From Fibrobacter succinogenes (GTDB lineage Bacteria > Fibrobacterota > Fibrobacteria > Fibrobacterales > Fibrobacteraceae), in NCBI RefSeq assembly GCF_902779965.1, contig NZ_CACZDK010000004.1, forward strand, positions 1 through 64,000: DNA of 64,000 nucleotides, in the 5' to 3' direction. The notes beneath the pieces are model-generated. The model was not told the origin of the DNA, did not search any database, and saw only the letters and a list, made by a program, of their open reading frames with translations. Position 1 is the stretch's first letter; every line of letters begins with the position of its first letter. The position numbers and the translations under genes are program-made. Shown one piece after another: positions 1,951-23,631 of this stretch.

Positions 1951-1977
1951 GTACGCATTTAAAATCCCGCTTATATT
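1949..1977 (+). promoter_or_regulatory. Sigma-70-type promoter of the first GH9 gene
   Basis: TTGTAC at 1949-1954 and TATATT at 1972-1977 with an exact 17-base spacer. This predicts a start near 1984 and a leader of about 167 bases before the ATG at 2151. The -35 box begins in the T-run of the upstream terminator. Confidence 0.55.
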
Positions 1978-2025
1978 ACACGCTATGGAACGGGATGAAA
2001 ATTTTGCAAAATAAGGGAACAGATG

Positions 2026-2150
2026 GAGAACAAAAAAATTTAAATTTCCTTAGCTATCCTCTTGTAAATAGTTTATTTTCATTTTTCAAGAGGATTGTTT
2101 GGGGGCAAAATTCATTTTGCCCATTTTTGTTTTACGCTAAAGGAGACAAA
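2026..2150 (+). promoter_or_regulatory. Structured 5' leader (two hairpins) of the first GH9 gene
   Basis: The leader contains GAGAACAAAAAA at 2026. A 9-bp perfect hairpin follows: ATCCTCTTG at 2056-2064 pairs with CAAGAGGAT at 2087-2095 around a 22-base AT loop. A second hairpin, GGGCAAAA at 2103-2110 with TTTTGCCC at 2115-2122 (loop TTCA), is followed by a U-rich tract and resembles an intrinsic terminator. A strong SD, AAAGGAGA, precedes the ATG at 2151. The second GH9 gene has the same arrangement at almost the same distances. An attenuator or riboswitch-like role is inferred. Confidence 0.6.
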
Positions 2151-5100
2151 ATGAGTATAAAAAAATATCTGCTGGCTTTGTGCGCTACAGTAGGCATAAC
2201 CGTAGCACAGCAGAATTATCCCACACCATATGATTTGATCAGGCCTGTTTGGCCGTTAACCTGGGACAGCACTATATTCAAGACTAATTTTGCTCCAGGT
2301 CCAAAGCGAGTCTCGTTACCAAGCAAAAACACACCGGAATACTACGCCCCAAACGAAATCATTACTCCGGATACATTAAACCAGGCGTACATCGACGCCA
2401 TGGTAATCCAGATATCCCCCATTCGCGTCAACCAGGCCGGTTACCGCCCACAAGACGCGAAAAAACCGGTGCTATACGTTGGTTCAGCGACAAACTTCGA
2501 TGTTGTCAATGCAAAAGGCGAAGTCGTTGGCAAAGGAAGCTTCACAGAAACGCTCAAGAACTCCGTTTCGTCATCCTTAACAATCAAGGCATCGAACAAC
2601 TCCCAAATAGAATATGGTGGCGATAACCGCTACACGGCAACAAAGGCGGGCCCTACAGGAGCACTAAAAAGAGGTTTTCTCCCCGACGGTCTTCCCGAAA
2701 ACGAAAGACTGCGCATCAAGGTCGGAAACGATTACTCCTCCACATTTATCATCAGCGACAGAGTCTACTCCATGCTTCGCGATGCCGTCATCAAGTTCTA
2801 CGGGATTAACCGTAGCGGTAATTCGGAATCCTGGTTCCATCCGCCTAGCCATCTGAAAGACGGTTCCCTCGCCAATGTCGATATGACCGGCGGCTGGTAC
2901 GACTGCGGAGACCATCTTAAAGAAAGCCAAACAATCTCCTATAGCCTAGCACAGCTCGCCATGACGGCCGCCGCCTACGAAGACCGCGACCAGGACAACT
3001 ACGCATTCAACCAAGGCGAAGCCCAAAATACAGACAACATCCCTGACATGCTCCGAGAAGCGAAATTCGGAGCCGAATACGTCATCAAGGCTTACGATGC
3101 AGCCAAGGGCGTTGTTTCGGCAATGCCAGTATCCATTGGCGAAATCGGCAAAGACCACGGATGGTGGGGTTCTCCAGAATACCAGGACAACACACTCCAT
3201 GATAGAGGTGGTCCGACAGCTCGAATCTTGAGAAGCGATGACAACCCCGGAAGCGATGCAGAACTTGGAAGTACGGCCTCCGGAAACTTTGCCGCAGGCT
3301 TGGCCATCGTCTCCAAAATCTGGAATAAATACGATTCCACCTTTGCCAAAAAAAGCTTGACTGTGGCAAAAGCTCTTTATGAGTACGGCAAGTCCAAGAA
3401 AAAGCTCACAAATTCACCGGCTTATAGCGGTGGATCCACATACCATGACGAAATGGGCTTTGCGGCTGTATGCCTTTTCTATGCAACCGCAGATAAAACT
3501 TATTTGAACGACGCCGTCGAAGAAAAGTCCCTGGCAGGCGGCCAAACCAAGAAAGATTTCGCCAACAGCGACAAAAAAGGCGCAGGCATGTTCAATGGCG
3601 GATGGTTCGCGCACAAAGAAGCTTCTTTCTTGAAATCTAATGCCGCATCGGACTGGGCAAGCGTGTTCACGAGCGGTCTTTACGCCTTCTACAAATTGAT
3701 TTTGGAAACACAAGAAAAAGCTAACGCTTATGGCCTTTCGGACGAGCAAAGAATGATTTACATCGAGGACGTAGCCTTTACCATGGCGGCAAACCTCGCA
3801 GGTGTCATGACAGGCGGCTCTGAGAAAATCAATCTCCCCGCCGGTCAAGCCGGCTGGGTCGGCACCTCGATTTCATACGATCCGGTATGGGGATTGACTA
3901 GCTCCGTAAAGTCCGACTGGTGGACCAAATACGAAGCCGCCAACATTTTTGAACTTTTGGCGTATTACGACGTAACGAAGGACCTTGAAAACGTCACGAT
4001 GCCACAAACAGGAACCGTTCAAAATTGGAAATCGGATGAAATTCTCGAGCTTGCCGTTTCGCACATGAACTACTACCTCGGCATGAACCCGTGGGATGTA
4101 TCCTTGATTTATGGAGTCGGCGACAAGAACCACGCCCACCCGCACCATCGCGGTTCTAACCCCGAAGGTAAAAACGTCGCTGGTGTCATCAGCACATACA
4201 AATACCGTCCGCCCGTTGGAGGTTTAGGCCCTGCTCATGCACCAACCGGAGACGATGACCTTACAGTCCATTTTAACGATTACAAGCTCACAGAAAACAC
4301 ATGCATCGACGCCGTATCCAACTTTTTGCCGGCAGCAGTCCTTCTCGCCAAGTCTGAAGACTTGAACAGAGCACCCGCAATATCCGTTGAAATCCGCCAT
4401 GTCGATATGGATTCTGCAATAGTCTTTGTAAAACTGGACTTGGGCAGCTACGCCTATATCACTTACGACACAACGGAAACTTTAAAGAATCCGATAACAG
4501 CAAGTTCCGAAACAGCGACCAACCAGCACCAAATTATACTGCGCGATCTCAAGCCAGGAACAACTTACTACTTCTACGCCACAGCTAAGAACCCACGAAG
4601 CGGAAACACATCGAAAAAATGGCTAGTCGACAGCACCTCGACTCCGTTCACATTTACAACGCTTAGTACGGTTGAAAATGCAAACATTCAAAACGTTACC
4701 GTTTGTAATGTTACCGCAGACACCGCCGAAATCATGTGGTACACGCCAAACGGCGCATATGACTCGAAAGTTTACTGGGATACAGTTCCTCATTCAAACT
4801 TAAATGAATACGCATTCAACACAGGTAATGGCAACGCCGATATTTCCGGCATTCCGACGCAATTCCACTACGTGAAAATCGGCGGACTCAAGGAAAGGAC
4901 CACCTACTACTACGCTGTAGAAAGCAATGGCGTTTTTACAAACGTCAACGATAAGAACGAGCCGTTAAAGTTTAAGACTCCTGTAACGCAATACAAGTTT
5001 GAAGTCCGAATGTCCCAATATGTATGGGACCCGATGCCGGCCCTCGAAATCAATATTATCAACAACGAAGAACGTCCGTTCGACAGCTTGACATTGCGCC

Positions 5101-8100
5101 TCTACATGCGCGCCACCGACGACATCTATTACGACGTCGGCATTAGACGCGATATCTGCCAGGCATACAACGAAGCCGCCTACAACGACACGTGCTCCGC
5201 AGCAACACAAAAAGAACTGGATGGACTGTTCCGCAAGACATTCCCTCAAAAAATTGAAGACACCTACGACCCGACCGATGGCACATGGCAATGGTACTTC
5301 CCCATCCCGCTTGGTTCAACCATCATCAAATCTACGAGTAGGCTCAGAATTGACGTCATGTTCGACAGAAGAAGCGAATGGGAACCACACCTAGATTTGA
5401 TGAACGACACGCCCAAAAAGAAATTCTACTGCAACGACGGAAGCTCGTGGACATCCCAAGCAAAAGACAAGTTGCCTCAAAATCCTGGTGACTGGAGCTG
5501 GATGCCGCACTCGAAGGAAAACGGCGATTACGCTGATTTCGAAGGAATCCCCTGCCTTCCCAAGAACTTTGGCGATGATGACCTAGCCCCCATCAACCCT
5601 TACGTGTCCATTTACCGCAAAGATGAATTCGTATGGGGGTACAGCCCATCCAAAAAGGAAATGGAGACGAAGAAAGCTAAATACGAATTGACCGTATCCT
5701 TGGATCCTCCTTTCAATGTTTCGAATGGAAGCCATATCGATATAGACCAAAATAACAGCACCGTTCATGTCACAGGTAAGGCCCTTGTAACAGAAAACGG
5801 ATACATCACCAAAATTTGGGCAAATGGAGCCAAAGTCAGCGGCTCGATGCTATCCCAAGGTCTCGACAGATGGCTTTTGGATTCGTCCAATACGAAAACT
5901 ATCGCAAAATTCAACTTTGAGACAGGCTTATGGGATTTAGATATACCTGTCAAGATGAACATTGGATCCAAGAAAGTGGATATCACTGTATTCGCAGGCC
6001 CAGATCCAACTTGCGACGCTTGCACAGAAAATGGCGGTTGCGCTTTTGAGAACAGAAACTATTACATCAACTTCTCCAAAGGAGACGCCACTGCGTCCCA
6101 GCTTGTCATCAAGGATGCACAAGGAAACTCAATCGTAAGCCCCGCGAACCCAGAAGGCACAATATTCTACATCGACTTGTTGGACAAAGACAAGATCAAG
6201 AGCAAGGCAAGCTCTGTTGATATCTTGGTTATCAACAACAAGAAAAATGATCGACTCAAAGTAACCTTGACCGCAGACCCGAATAACCCCGGTCACTTTG
6301 TCGGCGGGCCGATTACCGCAGTGAACCACAGCAAGGAATCCAGGAACCAGACTTCTGAAATTTCGTTCTTTGCAGGCGATACAATCCAAGTCGTCTACAC
6401 CGACCCTGACGACGAAGACGATATCTCGAAGCAAACGTTCTTTGCAGAAACCAAGATTCCGTCGCCGCAGATAGCACTCGCCGAAGACACTAACTGCGAC
6501 AACAAGGCCGATCAGCTAAAGATTACATTCACAAATAAATTCACTGAAGAATATACGCTAGAAAGTATCAGCTACTTTATCGAAGGCATGACCGATTCCG
6601 TCAAAGTTCCGCTTGTTGCCTCCCAATATGCAAACCAAAACGAAATCATCATCCCGATTGACACAAGCCTTGTTCCAAAAAATCCAAATCCATCCGGAAA
6701 GATTACAGTCCGCATTACCGATCACGGTACAACAAATGCTGAAACCGCAAAAATTACGGACGGTATTTTCCCGACTCTCGAAAGCGTTTCGATTCTCGAA
6801 AAAGCTGACGACGACAACAGCGGTCTCGACACGATCATGATAGCATTCTCAGAGCCGGTGATATTCTCATCCGAAAGTGAATGGCCGCTTACCATCGCTG
6901 GAGCCACAGGAGTTCCGACCGTCATCGGAAAAGGAACGACCACCAATAACGGCAAGAGCTGGACCTTTATCATCAGCGGCAATACAGGCAATTCGCTTGT
7001 TCCGGTTGGCGCTATGGCAAGTGTAAGAACAACTGGCGGATTCACAATTACCGACCAGAACTTTAACCCGATAAACAACAGTTGTAAGCCCTCTGTTCCA
7101 ATAACGCTTATCTCTCGCCCTGTTCCAATCTACCATGCAGACATGATCGATTTGCAAGGCGACGGTATCCCCGATGTAGTCTTTATGATGTTCGAGAAAA
7201 AGCTCAAACCCAAAGATGTTTTCGACAGCATTGTTGTAAACTGGGGCAACCCGGGCATCACCCGCAGCTTCATTACCACAGCCGATACAACCGGCGGCAC
7301 AATCGTCCCGAAGGAATCTTACTGGACCATCCGCGACTCTGTTTCGGCTCCTTTCAAAGTCATGATTGACTCCATCCATTCAAAGGATTCCGTCAACACG
7401 TATAGCATTGTCGAAATCAACATTCCAACGACACACGCCTATCCGTACGGTTCCACAAGCGGTGAAAACGACGGTAACGGAACGGTATCCCCGATGAAGG
7501 GTGTCGCAAACGGATTCTTCGAAACAACCTACACGCTGTACGACAAGTGCGCGCCTGTCATTGCATCCGCACGCATGATCAAGGAAAACGTGCTCACCGT
7601 CAATATGTCCGAAAACCTCAACATGATTGAAACGGGCAAGTACATCCAGCGCGAACGTGATGAATACATTCCGCTCGAAAGGCCGCAGGGTACAGGCAAG
7701 TCGCAGCTCTTTACCTATAACGAAAAGGACAACGTCTTCCATGCCGGCGACCGCGTACGCCTCGTTCCAGAGGTTCTCGGAGGAGCCTACATCGACAAGA
7801 ACAACAACGCCCCGACAACAGCAAACCCCTATGTGCGTATCACGGGTGACGACAACATCCGCTTTACGGTAACGCTCACAAAGCCTGTTGCCACACCGAA
7901 GGCCGGTGCATACATGGGCCGTCCGGAAAGCACCATGAACGACGCATTCGTTACATCGGCAATCATCAACGGTAAGCGCAACTTTATCAGCTCAAACGGA
8001 ACGCTCCTCGGTCAAGTGGATACAGCCACATACGTTAGCTCCGGCCCGAATTTCGAGATCGAGGTCATGATGCCATCTGCAGGCTTCCTCACCCACGATG

Positions 8101-8477
8101 CCATACCGATGTATGATTTCCACCTGAAGATTGTCACCGACCTCTACGACAACCTTGGGCAATACGTGAACACCTACAAGCTGGATATCCCGAAAGAAAA
8201 CTTCGCGACAATCAGAAACCTGACCGATAACGGCACCCTAAAACTCAACGTGGAATGGGCCGCGAAGGACAACGAAGCGCCGGTCGCCAAGAAGGGCAAC
8301 AAGATTGGAACCGGAGCCTATATCGCAAAGTTTGACTTTACTGCAGAGCCCTTCTGCGCCACGACATTCGATTCAAAGAGCAACGACTACAAGGCTACAT
8401 GCTCAGTAATCGGAGAAAAGGCCGGAAGAGTAACAGACAGCAAGACAAAGACTCTCGGGTTTAAGAGAAAGAAATAA
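2151..8477 (+). CDS. Giant modular secreted glycoside hydrolase family 9 protein (copy A)
   Basis: Predicted extracellular beta-1,4-glucanase of 2108 aa. A longer in-frame extension exists from 1995, but AAAGGAG just before 2151, a signal peptide beginning MSIKKYLLALCA, and the matching start of copy B fix the ATG at 2151. Order: an Ig-like GH9 N-domain (IRVNQAGYRP); a GH9 catalytic domain with GGWYDCGDH near residue 246 (catalytic Asp pair), the substrate-site PHHR near 663 and the likely acid Glu in TENTCID near 714; two fibronectin-III-like modules; a CBM-like beta module with Cys pairs; several Ig-like repeats with SbsA-type AFSEPV and Asp-rich DGIPD loops; and a long conserved C-terminal region ending in a basic tail (GFKRKK). 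The catalytic residues look intact. Which glucan it cuts and how it is surface-attached cannot be read from the sequence. Confidence 0.93.
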   Translation: MSIKKYLLALCATVGITVAQQNYPTPYDLIRPVWPLTWDSTIFKTNFAPGPKRVSLPSKNTPEYYAPNEIITPDTLNQAYIDAMVIQISPIRVNQAGYRPQDAKKPVLYVGSATNFDVVNAKGEVVGKGSFTETLKNSVSSSLTIKASNNSQIEYGGDNRYTATKAGPTGALKRGFLPDGLPENERLRIKVGNDYSSTFIISDRVYSMLRDAVIKFYGINRSGNSESWFHPPSHLKDGSLANVDMTGGWYDCGDHLKESQTISYSLAQLAMTAAAYEDRDQDNYAFNQGEAQNTDNIPDMLREAKFGAEYVIKAYDAAKGVVSAMPVSIGEIGKDHGWWGSPEYQDNTLHDRGGPTARILRSDDNPGSDAELGSTASGNFAAGLAIVSKIWNKYDSTFAKKSLTVAKALYEYGKSKKKLTNSPAYSGGSTYHDEMGFAAVCLFYATADKTYLNDAVEEKSLAGGQTKKDFANSDKKGAGMFNGGWFAHKEASFLKSNAASDWASVFTSGLYAFYKLILETQEKANAYGLSDEQRMIYIEDVAFTMAANLAGVMTGGSEKINLPAGQAGWVGTSISYDPVWGLTSSVKSDWWTKYEAANIFELLAYYDVTKDLENVTMPQTGTVQNWKSDEILELAVSHMNYYLGMNPWDVSLIYGVGDKNHAHPHHRGSNPEGKNVAGVISTYKYRPPVGGLGPAHAPTGDDDLTVHFNDYKLTENTCIDAVSNFLPAAVLLAKSEDLNRAPAISVEIRHVDMDSAIVFVKLDLGSYAYITYDTTETLKNPITASSETATNQHQIILRDLKPGTTYYFYATAKNPRSGNTSKKWLVDSTSTPFTFTTLSTVENANIQNVTVCNVTADTAEIMWYTPNGAYDSKVYWDTVPHSNLNEYAFNTGNGNADISGIPTQFHYVKIGGLKERTTYYYAVESNGVFTNVNDKNEPLKFKTPVTQYKFEVRMSQYVWDPMPALEINIINNEERPFDSLTLRLYMRATDDIYYDVGIRRDICQAYNEAAYNDTCSAATQKELDGLFRKTFPQKIEDTYDPTDGTWQWYFPIPLGSTIIKSTSRLRIDVMFDRRSEWEPHLDLMNDTPKKKFYCNDGSSWTSQAKDKLPQNPGDWSWMPHSKENGDYADFEGIPCLPKNFGDDDLAPINPYVSIYRKDEFVWGYSPSKKEMETKKAKYELTVSLDPPFNVSNGSHIDIDQNNSTVHVTGKALVTENGYITKIWANGAKVSGSMLSQGLDRWLLDSSNTKTIAKFNFETGLWDLDIPVKMNIGSKKVDITVFAGPDPTCDACTENGGCAFENRNYYINFSKGDATASQLVIKDAQGNSIVSPANPEGTIFYIDLLDKDKIKSKASSVDILVINNKKNDRLKVTLTADPNNPGHFVGGPITAVNHSKESRNQTSEISFFAGDTIQVVYTDPDDEDDISKQTFFAETKIPSPQIALAEDTNCDNKADQLKITFTNKFTEEYTLESISYFIEGMTDSVKVPLVASQYANQNEIIIPIDTSLVPKNPNPSGKITVRITDHGTTNAETAKITDGIFPTLESVSILEKADDDNSGLDTIMIAFSEPVIFSSESEWPLTIAGATGVPTVIGKGTTTNNGKSWTFIISGNTGNSLVPVGAMASVRTTGGFTITDQNFNPINNSCKPSVPITLISRPVPIYHADMIDLQGDGIPDVVFMMFEKKLKPKDVFDSIVVNWGNPGITRSFITTADTTGGTIVPKESYWTIRDSVSAPFKVMIDSIHSKDSVNTYSIVEINIPTTHAYPYGSTSGENDGNGTVSPMKGVANGFFETTYTLYDKCAPVIASARMIKENVLTVNMSENLNMIETGKYIQRERDEYIPLERPQGTGKSQLFTYNEKDNVFHAGDRVRLVPEVLGGAYIDKNNNAPTTANPYVRITGDDNIRFTVTLTKPVATPKAGAYMGRPESTMNDAFVTSAIINGKRNFISSNGTLLGQVDTATYVSSGPNFEIEVMMPSAGFLTHDAIPMYDFHLKIVTDLYDNLGQYVNTYKLDIPKENFATIRNLTDNGTLKLNVEWAAKDNEAPVAKKGNKIGTGAYIAKFDFTAEPFCATTFDSKSNDYKATCSVIGEKAGRVTDSKTKTLGFKRKK
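7470..8477 (+). repeat. C-terminal segment of copy A, near-identical to 14256-15262
   Basis: The last kilobase of GH9 copy A is repeated at an offset of about 6786 bases in copy B with only scattered, mostly silent differences. One example is the block at 7713-7780, from the Phe-Thr-Tyr-Asn-Glu-Lys-Asp codons through the Val-Leu-Gly codons. The catalytic regions of the same genes differ much more. Confidence 0.8.
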
Positions 8478-8485
8478 GAACGATG

Positions 8486-8520
8486 AAGCCGCCAGGATTT
8501 AACCATTCTGGCGGCTTTTT
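8486..8520 (+). terminator. Intrinsic terminator after GH9 copy A
   Basis: A 10-bp stem, AAGCCGCCAG / CTGGCGGCTT, with a 12-base loop and a T-run. The loop bases GATTTAACC recur in the terminator after copy B, so the terminators were duplicated with the genes. Confidence 0.92.
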
Positions 8521-8604
8521 ATTTGTAAACTTACAGTTACAAAAATCCCTGTAAATACTAATAAATCATATCATTTTACTACAAATATCCTTAAAAAATC
8601 TCCG

Positions 8605-8610
8605 TATAAT
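8605..8610 (+). promoter_or_regulatory. -10 box of GH9 copy B
   Basis: Perfect TATAAT in the context CCGTATAATACAC, closely matching the TATATTACAC context of copy A. No good -35 is visible at 16-18 bases, so an activator may be needed. The predicted leader is about 157 bases. Confidence 0.5.
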
Positions 8611-8648
8611 ACACTAAAGAAAAAACGTTTAATTTCAGGGTAAAATTT

Positions 8649-8773
8649 GAGAACAAAAAAGCTTTTATCCCAAAACATTTTTACATAAATAATCTATTTT
8701 ATCTTTTGATAGATTATAGTCAGAGGGCAAAACACGTTTTTGCCCGCTTTTTTGGTTATACAAAGGAGACAAT
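8649..8773 (+). promoter_or_regulatory. Structured 5' leader (two hairpins) of GH9 copy B
   Basis: GAGAACAAAAAA starts at 8649, exactly 125 bases before the start codon as in copy A. Hairpin 1 is ATAATCTAT (8689-8697) with ATAGATTAT (8709-8717). Its stem sequence is unrelated to that of copy A but it has the same stem length and position. Hairpin 2 is GGGCAAAA (8725-8732) with TTTTGCCC (8738-8745), then a T6 run. AAAGGAG precedes the start. Keeping the stem while changing its sequence suggests selection on RNA structure. Confidence 0.6.
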
Positions 8774-11700
8774 GTGAGTATTAAGAAGTATCTGTTAGCA
8801 CTATGTGCAGCAGCCTCTGTAATGGCTGAAGATCCTACTCCTTATGAATTGATTCGACCAGTGTTCCCATTGACATGGGATACGACAGTGTTCAAAGATT
8901 TTGACACCTCGGTCACAAGAAAAAAGAACATGCTGCCCAAGAATCTGACTCCGGCAGCATACGCTCCAAATGCTCTAATTCCAGACACTTTGAATCAAGC
9001 CTATCTGGACGCCATGAACGTCAAGATTTCCCCAATCCGCGTAAACCAGGCCGGATATTTGGAAGACGATCCTGAACGCCAGTTTTACTATATAGGCAAT
9101 GCCCAAACTTTCGAAGTTACAGATATCAACGGAGTTCCTTTAGTTCCGCCAATAACAGGTTCACTGATTTCCTTAAACCAAAAAGTTTCCTCTACATGGT
9201 TAATCAACGCCGGAACCAATGCCGCCACCAATGACCAGAAGCGTTATTCTGTAAAGACAACGGGTCCAACGGGTGATTTGAAATACGGTCATATTCCTCA
9301 CAGCGTACCTCTAGACACTCGTTTACGCATTAAAGTTGGCAATGATATTTCCAGCACTTTTATCGTAAGTGACAAACTCTATTCCATGGTGAAAGACGCC
9401 GCCCTCAAGTTCTACGGCATCAACCGTAGCGGTATTGCAGAATCCTGGTTCCGCAATGGCGCTTCAAGCCACGCCCTAGATGGAGCAGGTCCAGTTACTG
9501 AAGGCCCTCAAGATATTCGCGGACCTTACAACGCCGCCCTTGCAGGAACGCTTCAAGGTGGTTATTATGACTGTGGGGACCACCTGAAGGAATCCCACAC
9601 CCAAATGTACGCATTCATGGTCATGGCATTGATGGCCGCGACTAATCCAAATGCAGACGAAGATAATTACGCATTCAACCAAAGCATTACAAGCGTTAAA
9701 GACGGCATTCCGGACATGATGCGCGAAGCAAAGCACGGCGCAGACTTTGTGCTCAGGTCATTCATTCGAGCTAAAGGCGTTGTCGATGACATGGCTCTCT
9801 CTGTAGGTAACTTCGGTTCAGACCACGGCTGGTGGGGCCCTCCCGAAAACCAAGATGGTCTCCCCATTGGCAATACCGCAGAAGCAACAGACCGTGGTGG
9901 CCCAGGAACCAGAACCGTCCGTCTTGGTGAAATTGGAGCCAATGTCGGTGGCGAAACAGTGGCAGGTCTTGCACTCGTTGGCAAATTGTATGCCCAATAT
10001 CCAGAGTATAAGGATTTTGCAGATAGCTGCTTAATGGTTGCCGAAAAGATGTACGATTTTGCAAAAGCCCTTGTACAGGGAAAAACTACATATGATGGCG
10101 GCAAAAGAGTTGTACACCATACAAACGACACCACGGGCGCCCCGATGGCATTAGCAAAACAGTCCCCGGCCTACCATGGAAATAACGAATTTGTCGATGA
10201 CATGGCATTAGCTTCTGTAGCTTTGCTTTATGCTACGGGTAAAAAGCTATACGCCGATGACGCACTCCGTACTAAGAATCTTTTCCGAGAACAAGAATAT
10301 GCAACAGGTCCTGCATTCTTTGAAGGAGGCTGGTTTGTCACTCACAATAAGGGATTCTTTAAAGATGTAAAGAATACAGGTTGGGCAAACTCTTACTCTT
10401 ATGCTCTTTATGCTTTATATAAACTGATTCTCGCAGACAAAGATACAGCTATAAACAAATTCGGCTTGACCGAAAATGAATGGTTAAGCGCCGTTGAACA
10501 TTGTGTTGCCAATATGATTGCAAACTTGGGCGATTTGGGCAAATACGAAGGTCTTCCCGAGACATTTGTCTTCCCGACGGTTCCAAACATATGGAAACAA
10601 AGCCAGGTTACTTACGACAGAATCTGGTACACAATGATGACCGACCAAACCTGGATTTACAACCGATACCGCGCCGGCGACATCTTTGAAGTTTTGGCAT
10701 ATGCGGACGTAGCCAAAGATATCGAAAGCAAAAATATTTCTTTGCCGACCATGGGAACCCCCAACTGGAAAGCCGCCGAAGCAAAACAATTGGGCATCAA
10801 CCAGTTGAACTACTTGCTAGGCGTGAACCCCTGGGATATTTCGTTTATCATGGGCATTGGCGATAAGAACGATGCACACCCGCATCATCGTGGCGCAAAC
10901 CCCGAAGGCACTAACGTTCCAGGCGGAAAAACTAAGTACTATTACAGACCACCCGTTGGAGGTCTTTATGGCGCAGTACCACCACTTGGTGGCGATGACG
11001 GCGATGGAACCATGGGTAAAAAAGGCGTTCTCAGTTGGGAATACTACCAAATGTCCGAAATCTGTATTGATGCAGCGGCAACGCTTGTAAGTACAGTAAC
11101 TTTGGCCTCCAAGCAAATCGATAAGACTCTAGCCCCCGACATGAACGTTGAAATTCGCCATGTCAGCATGGACTCCGCTCTCATAACTGTTAATCTTACT
11201 CAGCGCGGTACAGTCACTATCAATTATGGCACAACTGAAGGCCAGTACAATCTTACAGCCTCCAGCGAAGGATCAGCTGTTAAGCATGACATTGTCCTCC
11301 ATGACTTGAATCCCGGTACAGCCTACTACTTCTACGTCACAGGAGCAAACGCCTACAACCCAGCAAATACAAAGACCAAGTATCTCGTCGATAGCACTCA
11401 GACACCATTCACGTTCACGACTCTCAGCACTGTCGAAAACGCAAACATCGTAAACGTCACCGTCTGCAATGTTGATGCGGATAGCGCCGAAATCATGTGG
11501 TACACCCCGAACGGCGAATATGAATCCAAGATTTATTGGGACACCAAGCCGCACTCCAATGCCAATGAATTTGCATTCAATTCCGGTGCCGGAAACGCAG
11601 ACGTTTCAGGCATTCCTACGCAATTCCACTATGTAAAGATTGGCGGGCTCAAGGAAAAGACAACCTATTATTTCATGGTCGAAAGCAACGGCGCCCAATC

Positions 11701-14700
11701 TACAGTTGATGACAAAGGCAACTTGCTCAAGTTCACGACTCCGGTCACATGGTACGACTTCAGCGTAAAGACATACCAATATCCTTGGCAAGGGGATATG
11801 GCCATGGTCAACATCAATATTTTCAACAATGAATCACGTGCTTTTGACAGCTTGACGATTAGACTTTACATGCGTGGCACCGATGAAATTGAACACGACA
11901 TCGGTATGGGCACAGACATTTGTAACGCCTACTCATCAGCCGGTTTCAGCGGGGATTGCTCAAAAGCAACGAAGGATGAATTGGAAAGAGGTCTCCGCGA
12001 TGCACTTCCAATAAAGATTGAAGACACCTATGATGAAGCTACGGGAACATGGCAATGGTACTTCCCCTTGAACCTCGGTTCTACGGTCATTCAAAGTGCT
12101 AGCCGCCTCCGCTTTGACGTGAGATTCGACCATCGCAGTCCTTTCCCACCATACAAGGACTTGATGAACGAAGCTCCGAATAAAAAACTTTACTGCTATA
12201 CGAACAACAAGTGGTATGCCCCGTCCGATGAATATGCAGGTGCAGCAACATTAGCAGCAAATCCAGGAGACTGGAGCTGGATGCCGCACTCTCGCGCCAA
12301 TGGTGAAGAATATGATTATCCGGGCATGCCCTGCATAAGCAAGGACGATGGAGACATAGACTTCGACGCCGCTCCGGTGAACCCATACGTATCCGTTTAC
12401 CGCAAGGACGAATTCATTTGGGGTTACAGTCCATCCAAGAAGGAAATGGAACACAAGAAAGCTCATTACAAGATTGACGTCTCTCTTGATCCTCCGTTCA
12501 ACTTGTCCAATGGCTCCCACATCGATATCGACCAATCAAGCAGCATAGTCCATGTCAAGGGCAAGGCTCATGTGACCGAAGGTGGTTACATCACAAAGAT
12601 TTGGGCAAACGGTGTCAAAGTCAGCGGTTTGACTGTTAGCAAAGGTCTTGACAAATGGCTATTGAACGAAGCCGGTAGCGAAATTATCGCCAAGTATGAC
12701 ATTCCAACAGACATGTGGGATTTAGATATACCGGTCAAGATGGGCATTGGATCCAAGAAAGTGGACATCACCATCTTCGCAGGTCCAAACCCCACATGCG
12801 AAACATGCTCTGAAAATGGAGGCTGCGCCTTCGAAAACAGAACTTTCTACATAAACTTCTCCAAGGGAGACGCAACAGCTTCTACGCTTGTCCTCAAGGA
12901 TGCCACCGGAAATCCGGTCGTAAGCCCAGCAAATCCAGAAGGCACGATATTCTATATCGACGTGATGGACAAAGACAAGATAAAGAGCAAAGCAACCTCA
13001 GTTGAAGTCCAGATTCTCAATAACAAAAAGAACGACAAACTCAAGGTAACCTTGAACGCCGATCCGAATAACCCTGGTCACTTTATCGGCGGGCCGTTTA
13101 CAGCAGTGAACCACAGCAAGGAAACTAGGAACAAAACTTCTGAAATTTCGTTCTTCGCAGGCGATACAATTCAGGTCGTCTACACCGACCCGGATGACGA
13201 AGAAGACATCTCTAAGTATTCGTTCTTTGCAGAATCCAAGGTCCCGTCTCCACAGACTGCTCTCGCCGAAGACAGCAACTGCGACAACAAGGCAGACCAG
13301 TTGAGAATCGTTTTCACGAACAAGCTTACTGATGACTACACGCTTGACAGTATCCGCTACTTCATCGAAGGCATGAAGGATACAGTCAAGGTTCCGCTTG
13401 TCGCCTCAAAATATGCAGACATGAACGAAGTCCTCATCCCTATCGATACAAGCCTTATCAAGACCAATGCAAACCCGACAGGAAAGATTACGACTTACAT
13501 TACCGACAAGGGCACCGCCAACGCCGAATCCATTAAGATTACGGACGGCATCCTCCCCACGCTCGTAAGCGTATCTATCCTCGAAAAATCGGACAGCGAT
13601 AATAGCGGTCTCGACACGGTCATGATAGCATTCTCCGAACCGGTCATCTTCTCGTCATTGAATGAATGGCCTCTCGTTATTGCAGGTACTGTAAATTCGC
13701 CAACGGTCATCGATGCCGCAACAACAAACAACGGCAAGACTTGGCAGTTGGTGATCAGCGGCAATACAGGCAATTCGCTCGTTCCGATTGGCGCCATGGC
13801 TAGCGCAAGAAACACCGGCGGATTTACAATTACCGACCAGAACTTCAACCAGATTAACCCACAGGGCTGTAACCCGAGTGTTCCAGTAACGCTCATTTCT
13901 CGCCCGGTTCCGGTTTACTATGCAGAAATGGTCGACAAGGAAGGTGATGGCGTTCCGGACTTGGTCCACATCATATTCGAAAGAAAACTCAAGACCAAGG
14001 ACGTCTTCGACAGCATCGTGACAATCTGGGGCAACCCAGGCATCACACGCACATTCATTACTACAGCCGATACCACCGGCGGTGTAATCGTCCCGAAAGA
14101 ATCTTACTGGACCATCCGCGACTCTGCTTCGGCTCCGATCCAAATCATGGTCGATTCCGTCACGGTAAAGGATTCCGTCACTACATATAGCATTGTCGAT
14201 ATCACGATTCCAGCAACGCATGCCTATCCATACGGCTCCACAAGCGGCGATAAGGACGGAAACGGAACTGTATCCCCGATGAAGGGTGCTGCAAACGGAT
14301 TCTTCGAAACGAACTACACGTTGTACGACAAGTGCGCACCGGTTATTGCATCGGCACGTATGATCAAGGAAGGCGTGCTCACCATCAACTTGTCCGAACA
14401 GCTCAGCATGGTCGAAACGGGCAAGTACATCCAGCGTGAACGCGACGAATACATTCCGCACGAAAGGCCGCAAGGTTCTGGCAAGTCCCAGCTCTTTACC
14501 TATAACGAAAAGGACAACGTCTTCCATGCCGGCGACCGCGTACGCCTCGTTCCAGAGGTTCTCGGAGCAGCCTACATCGACAAGAACAACAATGTCCCGA
14601 CAGTTGCAAACCCCTATGTGCGCATCACGGGTGACGACAACATCCGCTTTACGGTAACGCTCACAAAGCCTGTAGCAACGCCAAAGGCCGGTGCATACAT

Positions 14701-15262
14701 GGGCCGTCCAGAAAATACAATGAACGACGCATTCGTTACATCGGCAATCATCAACGGCAAGCGCAACTTTATCAGCTCAAACGGAACTCTCCTCGGTCAA
14801 GTGGATACAGCCGCATACTTTAGCTCCGGCCCGAATTTTGAAATCGAGGTCATGATGCCTTCTGCAAGCTTCCTCACCCACGATGGCATACCGATGTATG
14901 ATTTCCACCTGAAGGTTGTCGCTGACCTCTACGATAACCTTGGGCAATACGTGAACACCTACAAGCTTGACATTCCGAGAGAGAACTTCGCAGCGATTAG
15001 GAACCTGACCGATAACGGCACCCTCAAGCTAAACGTAGAATGGGCCGCGAAGGACAACGAAGCGCCGGTCGCCAAGAAGGGCAACAAGATCGGAACCGGA
15101 GCCTACATCGCAAAGTTTGACTTTACCGCAGAGCCCTTCTGCGCCGCAGCATTCGATACAAACAGCAATGACTACAAGGCCTCATGCTCTGTAATCGGAG
15201 AAAAGGCAGGGAAAGTAACAGACAACAAGACAAAGACTCTAGGCTTTAAGAGAAAGAAATAA
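8774..15262 (+). CDS. Giant modular secreted glycoside hydrolase family 9 protein (copy B)
   Basis: Tandem paralogue of copy A, 2162 aa, starting at a GTG with AAAGGAG upstream. The overlapping ATG at 8772 is followed at once by TGA and cannot be used. It has a signal peptide (MSIKKYLLALCAAASVMA), the N-terminal Ig-like domain (IRVNQAGY), and a GH9 domain with GGYYDCGDH near residue 263, PHHR near 701 and a candidate acid Glu in SEICIDA near 760. The downstream fibronectin-like, CBM-like, Cys-rich (CETCSENGGC) and Ig-like modules, and the C-terminal region ending GFKRKK, match copy A in order. The catalytic half has diverged clearly while the last 300 or so codons are nearly identical in DNA, which suggests gene conversion or constraint on the C-terminus. 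An extra loop rich in Gly and Pro lies before the catalytic Asp pair. Confidence 0.93.
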   Translation: MSIKKYLLALCAAASVMAEDPTPYELIRPVFPLTWDTTVFKDFDTSVTRKKNMLPKNLTPAAYAPNALIPDTLNQAYLDAMNVKISPIRVNQAGYLEDDPERQFYYIGNAQTFEVTDINGVPLVPPITGSLISLNQKVSSTWLINAGTNAATNDQKRYSVKTTGPTGDLKYGHIPHSVPLDTRLRIKVGNDISSTFIVSDKLYSMVKDAALKFYGINRSGIAESWFRNGASSHALDGAGPVTEGPQDIRGPYNAALAGTLQGGYYDCGDHLKESHTQMYAFMVMALMAATNPNADEDNYAFNQSITSVKDGIPDMMREAKHGADFVLRSFIRAKGVVDDMALSVGNFGSDHGWWGPPENQDGLPIGNTAEATDRGGPGTRTVRLGEIGANVGGETVAGLALVGKLYAQYPEYKDFADSCLMVAEKMYDFAKALVQGKTTYDGGKRVVHHTNDTTGAPMALAKQSPAYHGNNEFVDDMALASVALLYATGKKLYADDALRTKNLFREQEYATGPAFFEGGWFVTHNKGFFKDVKNTGWANSYSYALYALYKLILADKDTAINKFGLTENEWLSAVEHCVANMIANLGDLGKYEGLPETFVFPTVPNIWKQSQVTYDRIWYTMMTDQTWIYNRYRAGDIFEVLAYADVAKDIESKNISLPTMGTPNWKAAEAKQLGINQLNYLLGVNPWDISFIMGIGDKNDAHPHHRGANPEGTNVPGGKTKYYYRPPVGGLYGAVPPLGGDDGDGTMGKKGVLSWEYYQMSEICIDAAATLVSTVTLASKQIDKTLAPDMNVEIRHVSMDSALITVNLTQRGTVTINYGTTEGQYNLTASSEGSAVKHDIVLHDLNPGTAYYFYVTGANAYNPANTKTKYLVDSTQTPFTFTTLSTVENANIVNVTVCNVDADSAEIMWYTPNGEYESKIYWDTKPHSNANEFAFNSGAGNADVSGIPTQFHYVKIGGLKEKTTYYFMVESNGAQSTVDDKGNLLKFTTPVTWYDFSVKTYQYPWQGDMAMVNINIFNNESRAFDSLTIRLYMRGTDEIEHDIGMGTDICNAYSSAGFSGDCSKATKDELERGLRDALPIKIEDTYDEATGTWQWYFPLNLGSTVIQSASRLRFDVRFDHRSPFPPYKDLMNEAPNKKLYCYTNNKWYAPSDEYAGAATLAANPGDWSWMPHSRANGEEYDYPGMPCISKDDGDIDFDAAPVNPYVSVYRKDEFIWGYSPSKKEMEHKKAHYKIDVSLDPPFNLSNGSHIDIDQSSSIVHVKGKAHVTEGGYITKIWANGVKVSGLTVSKGLDKWLLNEAGSEIIAKYDIPTDMWDLDIPVKMGIGSKKVDITIFAGPNPTCETCSENGGCAFENRTFYINFSKGDATASTLVLKDATGNPVVSPANPEGTIFYIDVMDKDKIKSKATSVEVQILNNKKNDKLKVTLNADPNNPGHFIGGPFTAVNHSKETRNKTSEISFFAGDTIQVVYTDPDDEEDISKYSFFAESKVPSPQTALAEDSNCDNKADQLRIVFTNKLTDDYTLDSIRYFIEGMKDTVKVPLVASKYADMNEVLIPIDTSLIKTNANPTGKITTYITDKGTANAESIKITDGILPTLVSVSILEKSDSDNSGLDTVMIAFSEPVIFSSLNEWPLVIAGTVNSPTVIDAATTNNGKTWQLVISGNTGNSLVPIGAMASARNTGGFTITDQNFNQINPQGCNPSVPVTLISRPVPVYYAEMVDKEGDGVPDLVHIIFERKLKTKDVFDSIVTIWGNPGITRTFITTADTTGGVIVPKESYWTIRDSASAPIQIMVDSVTVKDSVTTYSIVDITIPATHAYPYGSTSGDKDGNGTVSPMKGAANGFFETNYTLYDKCAPVIASARMIKEGVLTINLSEQLSMVETGKYIQRERDEYIPHERPQGSGKSQLFTYNEKDNVFHAGDRVRLVPEVLGAAYIDKNNNVPTVANPYVRITGDDNIRFTVTLTKPVATPKAGAYMGRPENTMNDAFVTSAIINGKRNFISSNGTLLGQVDTAAYFSSGPNFEIEVMMPSASFLTHDGIPMYDFHLKVVADLYDNLGQYVNTYKLDIPRENFAAIRNLTDNGTLKLNVEWAAKDNEAPVAKKGNKIGTGAYIAKFDFTAEPFCAAAFDTNSNDYKASCSVIGEKAGKVTDNKTKTLGFKRKK
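14256..15262 (+). repeat. C-terminal segment of copy B, near-identical to 7470-8477
   Basis: Partner of the repeat in copy A, in direct orientation. Such repeats could allow homologous recombination that deletes about 6.8 kb or makes a hybrid gene. Confidence 0.8.
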
Positions 15263-15271
15263 CGAACCATG

Positions 15272-15312
15272 GAGCCCCAGGATTTAACCGTCCTGGCGGC
15301 TCTTTATTTTTA
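15272..15312 (+). terminator. Intrinsic terminator after GH9 copy B
   Basis: GAGCC-CCAGGA pairs with TCCTGG-(C bulge)-GGCTC, followed by TTTATTTTT. The next gene starts only about 18 bases further, so read-through may feed it. Confidence 0.82.
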
Positions 15313-15329
15313 GAACAAAAGATAAACGT

Positions 15330-18300
15330 ATGAAAAAACTAATCAGTGCTATTTTCTTATTATCCTTATTCTGCATAGAGCATTCTCTGGCAGCAAATAC
15401 TCATAGTCTACCGAATCTCGACAGGACCTGCAAAACTTGCACGCGTATACACAACGATTCGGTAAACGTCTTTAACAGGCGTCCCATCCGCTTGAACCAA
15501 AGCGGATTCAAGCCCGAACATTACAAGTATGCCTATGTTGCAGACCCTACAGAAAAGACGTTCAAAGTCATTGACGCCAACAGTGGAAAAGAAGTTCCCG
15601 GTGGAGGAAACCTCACCCTCATAGGAACTGTTACCAAGCCAGGTATAACAGTTAGAGTATCCTTCAACTCCCTCCAAGACTTAATGAGACTTGGGGACAC
15701 AACTTCGACGGGAACCGAAACTCTCTACCGCGCCGATTTCACAACGCTTTCAACTGTAGGCGAATACTTCCTCGTTGTGGGCAAAGACACCTCGGCAACA
15801 TTCCATATCAGCCCCTATATTTACAACTCCATTCTTGAAAAATCGTTGATGTTCTTTGGAATTCAACGTTGCGGCAATACGGATTCCCACTTCCACGGAG
15901 CCTGCCACTTGAAGGATGGTTCAAAAATAAATCATGACCTTACCGGTGGTTGGCATGACTGTGGTGACCATTTTAAAGTCGCCGAAACCGTCGGTTATGC
16001 AGCTTACGTGCTTTCAATGGTTTACCTCACCTACCCTGACAAGGCTGAAGACCGTTTCGGTCATTCATATGCAGACACAATTCGAGATGGCATTCCGGAC
16101 ATTCTCTATGAAGCTAAAATCGGTGCCGACTATATCATGAAGCTTTATGACGCCTCTGTTGCCGAAGGACTTATCGAAAAAGGCGACATGTTCCATACGG
16201 TGGGCATGAGCGATTGGGATCACAGTTTCTGGGACGTGCCCGAACACCAAGATATGCAACCTTATAAAAAAGGAGGTCCAGACCGACTTGTTCTCAAAGG
16301 TATCGGAACAAACGTTGCCGGCATTTACGCAGCCACATTGGCAAACGTTGCCGCCGGGTTTAAATGGATCAATCCTTCTTACTCTAAAAGACTATTAGAT
16401 GCAGCAAAAACAATTTATGCAAAAATTGTGAAGCCGACATACTTAAAATACACAGAATCATATGAAGGTCGTGACAAATGCGCTAAAAGGGGCAAGGCAA
16501 CTTTATACGAGTATAGCGATGGTAATATAACCTTTAACGGAAAAGGATACTACAGCGGTATGGGGCTTTGCGAAGACGATGCTGCAGCGGCAGCCGTGTC
16601 GCTTTGGTATGCTACCGGAGATACCACATATTCGTATGACTTGTATAAAAATCCGGACATGAACCAAAATGGGCATGCAAAATTTGACTTGGCATTTTTC
16701 CCTAAAGGGATTCTTGCTATGGACCAGGGCTTCAACAACTCTTGGGCAACGGACTACCAGAATCTATTCGCCTATGTTCTGTTCGCCATGCAAAGGCTTA
16801 TCTTGAACGACCCCGAATACGAAACAAAATTCGGACTGTCGAAAATGGAAAGAGATTCACTATCGATGCGCGTGATGGCTGCGTTCCGCAAACAAGTCGA
16901 GACCAACTCCACGGGTGATTCCGTTGCAGTTCTTTATCCGGGTTCCGGCAATGCAGAACCTCGCGAAGGCACATCCAAGCTCAAAGTGCAACCTCCCTAC
17001 AACTTGGTGTGGACCAGCTTTGACTGGGGCGTGATGCGCTACAACATGGGTTCTGCAGTGGCTGTATTCCTTTTGTATGAACTTACAAAAGACGAACGCT
17101 ACTTGAAAGTCGCTTTGGACAACATGTATTACGTACTGGGCGCCAACCCCTGGGATATTTCACTTTTGCTCGGTGCAGGCGACAAGAACCCGCAACACCC
17201 GCATAACCGTTCCGCAAACCCCGATGGTTACAATGCAGGTGGCGGCATTCCTTACGATTACAAGTGCCCCATCGGCGCATTGATGGGTGGACGCGCTCCG
17301 AATTTACCATTGATTGAAGACTGGGAAAAATACACATCGACAGAAACCTGTATCGACTTCTCGGCTCAGTTCCTGTTCCCGGCACAAAGCCTTGCAGAAC
17401 AACTCCCGCCCGATAACGACGGTCCTGTTTTCAGCGACATCGTTGGTATCCCCACATCGGATTCTACAGCAATTATCAGCTGGAAGACCGACGAACTCGC
17501 ACTCGTAACCGTTTCCTATGATGTAACAACAAATGCCAATACCGCAAAATCCATACAGCTCACCGAAGCGGTCAAAGAAGGCTCAGTAACACTCACCGGC
17601 CTAATTCCTGGGCAAACGTACTACTTCTACCTTGAAGGCGTTGACCCTCATGGAAACATCACCACAGATGATAACCATGGTTATTGGTACAAATTCACCA
17701 TGACATCGACAACAACTCAAATCAAGGGTGTTACCATTTGTCAGGTGGATAACCGCAGCGCTAAAATTTACTGGTGGAGCACAGATCGCCTAGACGGCAT
17801 GGTTCATTTTGGTAAAGCAAAAGGTTCCTATACTGAAAAAGTAGTCGCAAATGGCGGTGTAGCCCTTTTCCACGAAGCCGTCCTTACTGGACTTGAAGCC
17901 GGCACCACATACTACTTTACCGTATCATCTGGAGCAACTGTTTCCGAAGAATATTCTTTCACGACCGAACAATATGCAACAACAGTCAACATGGATATCA
18001 ACGTCAAGCCTCTCAACAAGGATGGATGTAGAAACTCTTCCGACTGGAAAAAATGCAATACGTTCCTCGTCATCGTCCGAAACAAAGACTCGGTGGAATA
18101 CAACGATCTTGATTTAAGATTCTATTTCCCCGTAGCAGTCCAAGGATCAAGCAACAACAAGTCCATTTGGGATGGAACCGGATTTTCCGTTGGCTGGCCT
18201 GTCATAAATTTCGGCGAACCTGTTCCCTATAATGTAATATCAATGAAAGACTCCGTAGAAAAAGGCTATTATATGCCAGTCCACATCGAGGGAAAACTGG

Positions 18301-21252: not shown

Positions 21253-23631
21253 ATGCAAGAGAGTCTATTTACAAACTCGCCCTACGTAATCGCGCTTTCC
21301 GTTATAGCGTTAATCGTTGTATGCTATTTTCCCATTATGCTTGGGCAAAAAACGTCAGTCAAGCAGCTCCCTCGCTCCATCCACCAATTGGTGATTATCA
21401 GTATATTCTGGCAGGCGAGCAACTTGATTGGCGATATTTTCTTTAGCGGTGAAAATTTTGTCGCAGGAACAAAGGCCTACACGGCAAGACAACTCATTTT
21501 TGGAGCAGCCGCACTGGGTTGGATCCAGTTAGGCAATGCTGTTCAGCACACCGCAGAAATCAGCCTGAAAATAAAAAGAAAGAACTGTTGGAAGCTCATG
21601 AACATTTTCGGAGCGGCCGCCGTTTTGATTTCGACTTATCTTTTTATCAACGAGCCTTCCTATATCCCCAATTTCAATTTCTTTAGCTACAGGCCATTTG
21701 CCGAAAGGCCCATATTCAACTTTTACTCGTTGTTGTTCTGCTTGTTTGTTCTTCCCAATATCATTGTCACGGCTTACATTTTTCTTCGCAATATTGTGCA
21801 ATCCAGCGATACGACGCTCCCCCACCAGGTCAGTATTTACATGTTGGCCTCGTTCGTATTCTTTATAACGCTAGCGGCTCTCTTCGATTTTGTCATCCCC
21901 ATTTCTACCAATTTCAATCAATACGATCAATTCCTCAAATGGTCGCAATTCATCTCGGTATTCCTAGCCATACTTTCGGGACAATACTTCACATCGGTTT
22001 CTTTTAAAAATAAAAGCGCCTCGTGGTTCTTAGACAAACTAAAAGACAGAATGGTAGACGGCCTCCTGTACTACAATTACAAAGGCGAAATTCAACTTGC
22101 AAATCCGGCGGCGCTGAGCATTTTGCACACCACGCAAGAAGCGCTCCACAACAAAAAAGTTTCTTCGATTTTCCCGCAAATCACGGACCCTTCGCGCGAA
22201 TCGACTTACAACAAAATAAGAGTCAAGATTGACAACGAAGACCATATTTTTAACGTTTCCATTTTTGAAATTCGTCAATCATTGACCACCAACTACAACG
22301 TAGCCTTCTTTAGCGATGTTTCGAACACATTGCATTACCAGCAAATTATCAAGAACCGCGATGAGCAGTTCAAGGAATACCAGCTCGACCAAATCCGCTA
22401 TCAAGAACGTTTAAACATCTGGAAAAAGAAGGTCGATGAAAGTAAATACTTCTTGGATACGTTAATCAGTACGCTCCCCTTCCGTTTTTGGTCCAAGAAC
22501 GAGCAGGGCGTATTCATGACGCAAAACCAAAACGATATCAAGAACCGCGGTAACCTGTTGCAAACTTCAGAGCCGGACAACAAGATTTTACCGCAAGAAC
22601 TTTTAGCGCGAAACGAAGGCGAACCGCAAAGTTTCATTTCATACGAACGAATTAAAAAATCTACAAGCGATTTTGAAGACGAAGAAGATTCAGTCGAGAT
22701 CTTGAACCAAGACGATTACAATATGGCAGTCCGCAAAGGAGCTGCTAAAGATATTTCAATTTTTGAAAACATGTTCATCCCGATTATGGCACCCAGTAAG
22801 CCATACAAAATAATCGGCATCAAGATTGATATTACCAAGGAACAGCGTCTCGAAAAAGAACGCGACATGTTGCAAGAACAAAAACATATCCATTCGAGAC
22901 TCGAAGAATTGGGAACCATCTGCGGTGGTTTTGCCCACGACTACAACAACATCCTGGGCTCCCAGATCGGTTTCTGCGACCTCGCACTAGAAGTGCTTGA
23001 TAAAGATAACCAGGCATACTTGTTCATCCAGGAAGCAAGAAAGGCGGCAACTCGCGGCAAGGAATCTCTTGAAGAGCTTTTAAACACCATCCGCGGAAAG
23101 ACATCCGAAAAGGACAAACTCACAGAGTTCGCGCCTTACATGATTATCGAAGACGTGGTGAAGAAGCTCTGGATAACACTCCCTCCAAACGTAAAGGTGA
23201 AAGCAGACAACATCGACAAGGACATTCGCATTGTTGGAAACGTCTCCGCACTCGACCGCATTATCAGCAACCTTGCAAACAACGCCATCTTCGCCATGAA
23301 GGAAAACGGCGGAACACTTACGATTGCTTTAAAACGCGAGGTGCTTACGGAGCCGCTCATTACGCCGTATGCACCGCAAATTGATGCAGGCACTTATGCG
23401 AAAATCACCGTCGAAGACACGGGCACAGGCATGGACACTGCGACCCTCGAACGCATCTTTTCACCGTTCTTTACGACCAAGGCGCCGGGCGAAGGCCTCG
23501 GCTTAGGGCTTTCTTCGGCCTTAAGACTGCTAAAAGAAGGCAATGCGGGCTATACAGTACAAACAACCTTGGGCGAAGGAACTATTTTTAATCTATATTG
23601 GTCTATAAGAAACGAGAAAATGGAGGCTTAA
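21253..23631 (+). CDS. Seven-TM sensor histidine kinase with PAS-like region
   Basis: Membrane sensor kinase of 792 aa. About seven hydrophobic segments occupy residues 10-250. A PAS-like segment (about 265-370; GLLYYNYKGEIQLANPAAL) and a second PAS-like segment (about 395-530) follow. A dimerisation/phospho-acceptor helix with FAHDYNN has its His near 562, in the NtrB-like style (HDxNN). The ATPase domain has N-box LANNAIFAM, G1 EDTGTGMD, F-box FSPFFTTK and G2 GLGLGLSSA. It starts 22 bases after the third GH9 stop and overlaps the next gene by one base (TAATG), so kinase and receiver are probably translationally coupled. The signal is unknown. With no periplasmic domain of any size, it may sense something in the membrane or through a partner. 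Confidence 0.9.
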   Translation: MQESLFTNSPYVIALSVIALIVVCYFPIMLGQKTSVKQLPRSIHQLVIISIFWQASNLIGDIFFSGENFVAGTKAYTARQLIFGAAALGWIQLGNAVQHTAEISLKIKRKNCWKLMNIFGAAAVLISTYLFINEPSYIPNFNFFSYRPFAERPIFNFYSLLFCLFVLPNIIVTAYIFLRNIVQSSDTTLPHQVSIYMLASFVFFITLAALFDFVIPISTNFNQYDQFLKWSQFISVFLAILSGQYFTSVSFKNKSASWFLDKLKDRMVDGLLYYNYKGEIQLANPAALSILHTTQEALHNKKVSSIFPQITDPSRESTYNKIRVKIDNEDHIFNVSIFEIRQSLTTNYNVAFFSDVSNTLHYQQIIKNRDEQFKEYQLDQIRYQERLNIWKKKVDESKYFLDTLISTLPFRFWSKNEQGVFMTQNQNDIKNRGNLLQTSEPDNKILPQELLARNEGEPQSFISYERIKKSTSDFEDEEDSVEILNQDDYNMAVRKGAAKDISIFENMFIPIMAPSKPYKIIGIKIDITKEQRLEKERDMLQEQKHIHSRLEELGTICGGFAHDYNNILGSQIGFCDLALEVLDKDNQAYLFIQEARKAATRGKESLEELLNTIRGKTSEKDKLTEFAPYMIIEDVVKKLWITLPPNVKVKADNIDKDIRIVGNVSALDRIISNLANNAIFAMKENGGTLTIALKREVLTEPLITPYAPQIDAGTYAKITVEDTGTGMDTATLERIFSPFFTTKAPGEGLGLGLSSALRLLKEGNAGYTVQTTLGEGTIFNLYWSIRNEKMEA

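Follow-up and report, generated by a model that had tools for sequence, protein, structure and literature searches.

A putative phased activator box in DNA and one conserved 5'UTR hairpin upstream of giant GH9 genes in Fibrobacter succinogenes

The regions preceding two giant GH9 genes of Fibrobacter succinogenes are best read, with a probability that we put at roughly 0.7, as activator-dependent promoters, each followed by a short 5'UTR with one conserved hairpin (P2), and not as a two-hairpin riboswitch. The genes lie in the window analyzed here, a stretch of 64,000 nucleotides from contig NZ_CACZDK010000004.1, in which three consecutive giant GH9 proteins were confirmed with Pfam (Table 1). 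The repeat found upstream of the genes was computed directly, as were its phasing, the unrelated loci that use it and the covariation of P2. As to the identity of the activator, the start sites and the function of P2, we infer the following. An 11-bp repeat (2015-2032 and 8638-8655), located 44-46 bp upstream of a -10 element, TATTTT, would be the binding site of an activator, for which a dimeric response regulator of the OmpR/PhoB type is the likeliest candidate. With this hexamer as the -10, the centre of the box would lie near -61 relative to the predicted start, a class I geometry, and transcription would begin near 2086 and 8707. The resulting 5'UTR of about 65-70 nt would carry P2, which may act together with its U tract as a conditional terminator in the window's clade. 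Starts at these positions would leave the GAGAACAAAAAA word, which lies within the box, and the 5' arm of a second hairpin described earlier (hairpin 1) outside the mRNA.

Table 1. Positions of the genes and of the upstream elements discussed in the text
Feature	Position	Strand	Remarks
Giant GH9 gene 1	2151..8477	+	2108 aa; GH9, CelD_N and fn3-like domains; start ATG 2151
Giant GH9 gene 2	8774..15262	+	2162 aa; start GTG 8774
GH9 gene 3	15330..21230	+	1966 aa; short gap after gene 2; without its own box leader
Histidine kinase, PAS-like match	21253-23631		directly after the GH9 genes
NtrC-family regulator (sigma-54 activator)	24014-25570		downstream of GH9 gene 3, with the histidine kinase
Leader 1 alternative -10-like TATATT	1972..1977	+	its use would put the entire leader into the transcript
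Leader 1 tandem activator box (putative) GGGAACA-gatg-GAGAACA	2015..2032	+	exact pattern match; 46 bp from second GAACA to TATTTT
Leader 1 hairpin 1, ATCCTCTTG/CAAGAGGAT	2056..2095 (arms 2056-2064/2087-2095)	+	spans putative -10 and start; own1 and near relatives only
Leader 1 putative -10 TATTTT	2074..2079	+	in conserved TAAATAGTTTATTTTC block; predicted start near 2086
Leader 1 conserved 5'UTR hairpin P2, GGGCAAAA-UUCA-UUUUGCCC	2103..2122	+	
Leader 1 P2 U-rich tail, ATTTTTGTTTT	2123..2133	+	terminator-like
Leader 1 Shine-Dalgarno region AAGGAGA	2141..2147	+	before ATG 2151
Leader 2 alternative -10-like TATAAT	8605..8610	+	upstream of box
Leader 2 tandem activator box (putative) GGGTAAA-attt-GAGAACA	8638..8655	+	2 mismatches, first half degenerate; 44 bp from GAACA to TATTTT
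Leader 2 hairpin 1, ATAATCTAT/ATAGATTAT	8689..8717 (arms 8689-8697/8709-8717)	+	mismatched in most relatives
Leader 2 putative -10 TATTTT	8695..8700	+	in TAAATAATCTATTTTA; predicted start near 8707
Leader 2 conserved 5'UTR hairpin P2, GGGCAAAA-CACGU-UUUUGCCC	8725..8745	+	
Leader 2 P2 U-rich tail, GCTTTTTTGG	8746..8755	+	
Genus-wide small RNA of about 60 nt	G000:C9:46338-46395 (locus L280)		RGGAACACCCAATCCCATCC, identical 18-mer, then terminator hairpin

The two upstream regions were compared with 80 genomes of the genus, searched with a pattern taken from the second hairpin and then with a covariance model built from 26 leaders. This profile gave 31 strong matches in 19 of the 80 genomes, with one or two copies in each of the 19, and every match was directly upstream of these GH9 genes; none of the 31 was a further full leader at another place in a genome. 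We added 40 more upstream regions of orthologs and paralogs to the comparison. The alignment of the 26 leaders contains four conserved blocks, namely GAGAACARAAA, TAAATAATYTATTTTM, the GGGCAARA/TTTTGCCC hairpin with its T tract, and AAGGAG, and both leaders of the window have the same parts. Compared across the 80 genomes, the "leader" resolves into separable modules. Rfam gave no match in the window, in line with the preliminary description, which knew of no RNA family for it. The open reading frame of GH9 gene 1 is also open upstream as far as an ATG at 1995 (1995-2150), and annotation software may therefore set the start of this gene 52 codons too early and mask the leader. The terminators of GH9 genes 1 and 2 (8485-8518 and about 15271-15305) have a loop segment in common, GGATTTAACC, and similar GCC-rich stems.

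In both leaders the GAGAACAAAAAA word indeed precedes the start codon by exactly 125 bases (2026 for ATG 2151 and 8649 for GTG 8774), as first described. It forms (as GAGAACA) the second copy in a direct repeat, GRGARCA-N4-GRGAACA, with a period of 11 bp, of which GGGAACAgatgGAGAACA (own1), GAGAGCAaaaaGGGAACA and GAGAACAtctaGGGAACA are examples among orthologs. In 51 of 53 leaders the second GAACA stands 44-46 bp from TATTTT, a spacing that holds after redundancy is removed (21 of 22 leaders); the intervening bases vary. Across the 80 genomes, the exact repeat gave 60 matches against 3 for a reversed control. The looser pattern GAACA-N6-GAACA followed by TATWTT, scanned over a 31-bp range of distances, gave 97 matches genus-wide against 6 for the reversed control, counts that are not independent since many of the matches are orthologous. 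These 97 fall into spacing classes of 44-47 bp (47 matches), 55-57 bp (17) and, weakly, 64-66 bp (14), with a single match below 44 bp; the peaks lie about one DNA turn apart, i.e., they are helically phased. The word is therefore probably an activator site in DNA, which explains these sequence patterns better than an RNA element does. In four orthologs (G023, G034, G073 and G080) the -10 block and P2 are present and the box is absent. Four orthologous leaders without a GAACA box (L127, L133, L135 and L142) share GCGTATTTTTTTGTTTT about 35-60 nt before the -10 block, possibly the site of a different activator.

Operators of the OmpR/PhoB type, such as the pho box and the heptamer repeats bound by SARP proteins, consist of two 7-bp direct repeats set 4 bp apart, giving a period of 11 bp, and precede an activatable promoter. 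The Fibrobacter box resembles them in its direct repeat of 7+4 bp and 11-bp period, and in its helical phasing with the -10, although to our knowledge GRGARCA is not a described box. A classical pho box overlaps the -35 region; the Fibrobacter site, by contrast, is set back about 45 bp from the -10. With class I activator promoters (CRP site at -61.5) it shares a centre near -61 relative to the predicted start and spacing classes about one turn apart, but its repeat is direct and not inverted.

Support for TATTTT as the -10 element came from 243 Fibrobacter upstream regions, in which the context of the -10 hexamer is TnTATATT, close to the TnTATTTT of the leaders. This context was derived from aligned hexamers; a search for promoter models by expectation maximization (EM) was dominated by T tracts. 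No clear -35 element was found in the leaders. In six gene-1 leaders, about 35 nt separate the box from the terminator T tract of the gene upstream, and this interval contains no -10-like hexamer, which places the promoter inside the "leader". Hexamers resembling those at 1972 and 8605 recur in gene-2 leaders, and judging from these sequences a second, longer transcript starting upstream of the boxes is possible.

The box is not confined to GH9 genes. The same layout of box and -10 was found upstream of a terminated small RNA of about 60 nt and of lipoprotein genes, and at those loci the box cannot belong to the RNA of a GH9 leader. The 18-mer of the small RNA occurs without a mismatch in 76 of the 80 genomes, essentially once per genome, and in those examples that were read its -10 follows tandem GAACA boxes; the loci scanned had no match in Rfam. 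Lipoprotein genes with an upstream tandem box were found at loci L157, L158, L186, L188 (C10:93349 in the window's own genome), L227, L234, L235, L221 and L228, where the box lies near 45, 53-55 or 61-66 bp from a -10-like hexamer. Pairing of the small RNA with the GH9 leaders was considered and rejected (p 0.25 and 0.43 for the two leaders of the window against 243 control upstream regions).

Hairpin 1 fared differently under comparison. Its 9-bp arms do exist in both leaders of the window, where the local fold is better than that of shuffled sequences (z of -4.4 and -2.9). The conserved two-hairpin layout that had been proposed was not recovered: RNAalifold predicted P2 alone from the 26 leaders, and across 56 leaders the hairpin 1 region folded much like its shuffles (mean z -0.67, median p 0.24). 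Nor did the claim of compensatory change hold, as the 5' arms that had been compared are not homologous and fall in different alignment columns, the arm of leader 1 lying upstream of the conserved TAAATARTYTATTTT block and that of leader 2 inside it. By eye, a version of the hairpin is kept only in close relatives of leader 1, with three G-U substitutions in G004 and one change of A-U to U-A in G084. Alignment, RNAalifold and shuffled folds rule it out as a conserved RNA element, and from these sequences the hairpin is probably incidental.

P2 is a genuine conserved 5'UTR hairpin with covariation. As had been noted, GGGCAAAA begins at 2103 and 8725, at distances of 48 and 49 bases from the start codon, is closed by TTTTGCCC and is followed by a T-rich tail; about 28 nt separate the end of the hairpin from the start codon, and the local fold of the region has a z of -1.6 in leader 1 and -3.1 in leader 2 against shuffles. 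Across the genus the stem is rewritten while its pairing is held, as in GGGCAAAA/UUUUGCCC, AGGACUC/GAGUCCU, CGGGUAC/GUACCCG, CGGGCAU/AUGUCCG, UGAGUGC/GUACUCA and others. Among 40 unique hairpins, 98% of the six outer pairs are formed, compared with 59% when the 3' arms are shuffled; over 15 distinct 5' arms the values are 98% and 51%, with none of 2,000 shuffles equalling the observed pairing, though these percentages are inflated by choosing the best hairpin in each search window. The z-score against shuffles is the fairer test, and it averaged -2.27 in 56 leaders; for 12 upstream regions classed as lacking P2 the mean was -0.10. The folding energy is mostly about -9 to -12 kcal/mol genus-wide. 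In a paralogous GH9 group, six leaders carry boxes and lack P2; the box and P2 are hence separable among orthologs and paralogs, which argues against a single integrated RNA device.

The U tract after P2 persists almost throughout the window's clade, and it also follows unrelated stems such as AGGACUC..GUUUUUU. In other groups P2 is kept and the tract is absent or broken, with CCATTTGG in the group of G005, G003 and G022, GTTGGCTG in G010, G056 and G033, and TCCCTTAC in G069. As the T tract is missing from several clades that keep P2, termination is not the property under genus-wide selection. For the window's clade, these sequences make a role of P2 as a terminator or attenuator possible; its conservation would also be consistent with a hairpin that protects or insulates the 6-kb mRNA at its 5' end. 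P2 resembles the stabilizing hairpins of the ompA type in its predicted moderate stability, in lying within about 20 nt of the predicted 5' end and in being kept in structure and not in sequence, and it differs from them in the U tract that follows it in many members. It resembles intrinsic-terminator attenuators in the placement of a hairpin and U tract between the predicted start and the Shine-Dalgarno region, but no competing antiterminator was found in the GH9 leaders and the U tract is not kept genus-wide. Pairing of block A with the U tract as an antiterminator was set aside, as one is A-rich and the other U-rich and no covariation was seen by eye in the alignment of 26 leaders.

Several other readings of these regions were weighed against the promoter with a single 5'UTR hairpin. 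In the model that goes with the preliminary description, transcription would start near 1985 and 8617 and the whole leader of about 165 nt would be an RNA attenuator or riboswitch choosing between termination at P2 and read-through. The -10-like hexamers upstream of both boxes would allow this, P2 with its U tract resembles an intrinsic terminator, both whole leaders of the window fold better than shuffles, and in the minimum free energy (MFE) fold of leader 1 an upstream segment, GGGAUGAAAAUUUUGC, pairs with P2 and could be an antiterminator. That partner is not conserved, however; orthologous leaders fold weakly as wholes (mean z -1.36), RNAalifold yields P2 only, and no aptamer-like conserved structure appeared upstream of the terminator in the consensus fold. 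With the boxes recurring at helical spacing before the small RNA and lipoprotein promoters, the box and P2 occurring apart and Rfam giving no match, we regard this reading as unlikely. What stands of the original proposal is a cis-acting regulatory region, with P2 and its U tract as a plausible terminator; the riboswitch-like RNA is poorly supported, as the word is better explained as a phased DNA repeat and hairpin 1 is not conserved. A narrower version, a sub-case of our preferred promoter reading, makes P2 a regulated intrinsic terminator that would yield an RNA of about 45 nt, with read-through set by a protein or by elongation conditions. The terminator-like stem and U tract of both leaders, and the near-constant U tract in the window's clade, speak for it, but given the loss of the tract in several clades that keep P2, the lack of an antiterminator structure in the leaders and terminator calls that are no commoner in scans than in shuffles, we hold it to be possible and on the doubtful side.

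Control at translation, by a third hairpin formed between the U tract and the Shine-Dalgarno sequence, seems very improbable. The U tract is paired with AAAGGAG in the MFE fold of both leaders, and the pairing probability of the Shine-Dalgarno sequence reaches 0.99 in own2, yet across 50 leaders it is 0.61 and remains 0.61 with shuffling confined to the middle of the spacer (Wilcoxon p 0.68), and a U tract and a purine-rich Shine-Dalgarno sequence pair automatically. We give no more credit to control of the leaders through a sigma-54 promoter by the histidine kinase and NtrC-family regulator encoded downstream of the GH9 genes. Sigma-54 is encoded in the genome and a similarly placed regulator has been named as a candidate [PMC3079729], but no GG-N10-GC lies within 150 nt of either start, no match to a stricter -24/-12 pattern was found in 72 leaders, and the linked regulator has GSYTGS at the position of the expected GAFTGA motif. 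An NtrC-type protein working with sigma-70 is conceivable.

How cellulase genes are regulated in Fibrobacter has been described as an unanswered question, and in F. succinogenes S85 a regulator placed similarly within the Fisuc_0393 to 0397 arrangement was put forward as a possible cellulase regulator [PMC3079729]. The histidine kinase and NtrC-type regulator of the window apparently correspond to that arrangement. The linked regulator is of the NtrC type and not of the OmpR type. Four OmpR/PhoB-type regulators, candidates for the activator, are encoded in the genome, and no GAACA box was found upstream of them, which gives no sign of autoregulation. No promoter or attenuation study of these GH9 genes was found in the literature searched.

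The analysis also illustrates how promoter DNA can be mistaken for leader RNA if orthologs are left out of a comparison of two paralogs. A wider and more speculative picture, which we consider rather unlikely as a whole, is a previously undescribed Fibrobacter regulon in which one activator acting through phased GAACA repeats would join GH9 cellulases, lipoproteins and a genus-wide small RNA, with the GH9 leader hairpin as a second checkpoint terminating or sparing the 6-kb message. A conserved, phased, putative operator before giant cellulases, common to the small RNA and the lipoprotein genes, would offer a handle on the control of cellulases in Fibrobacter, with the box serving as bait for its regulator.
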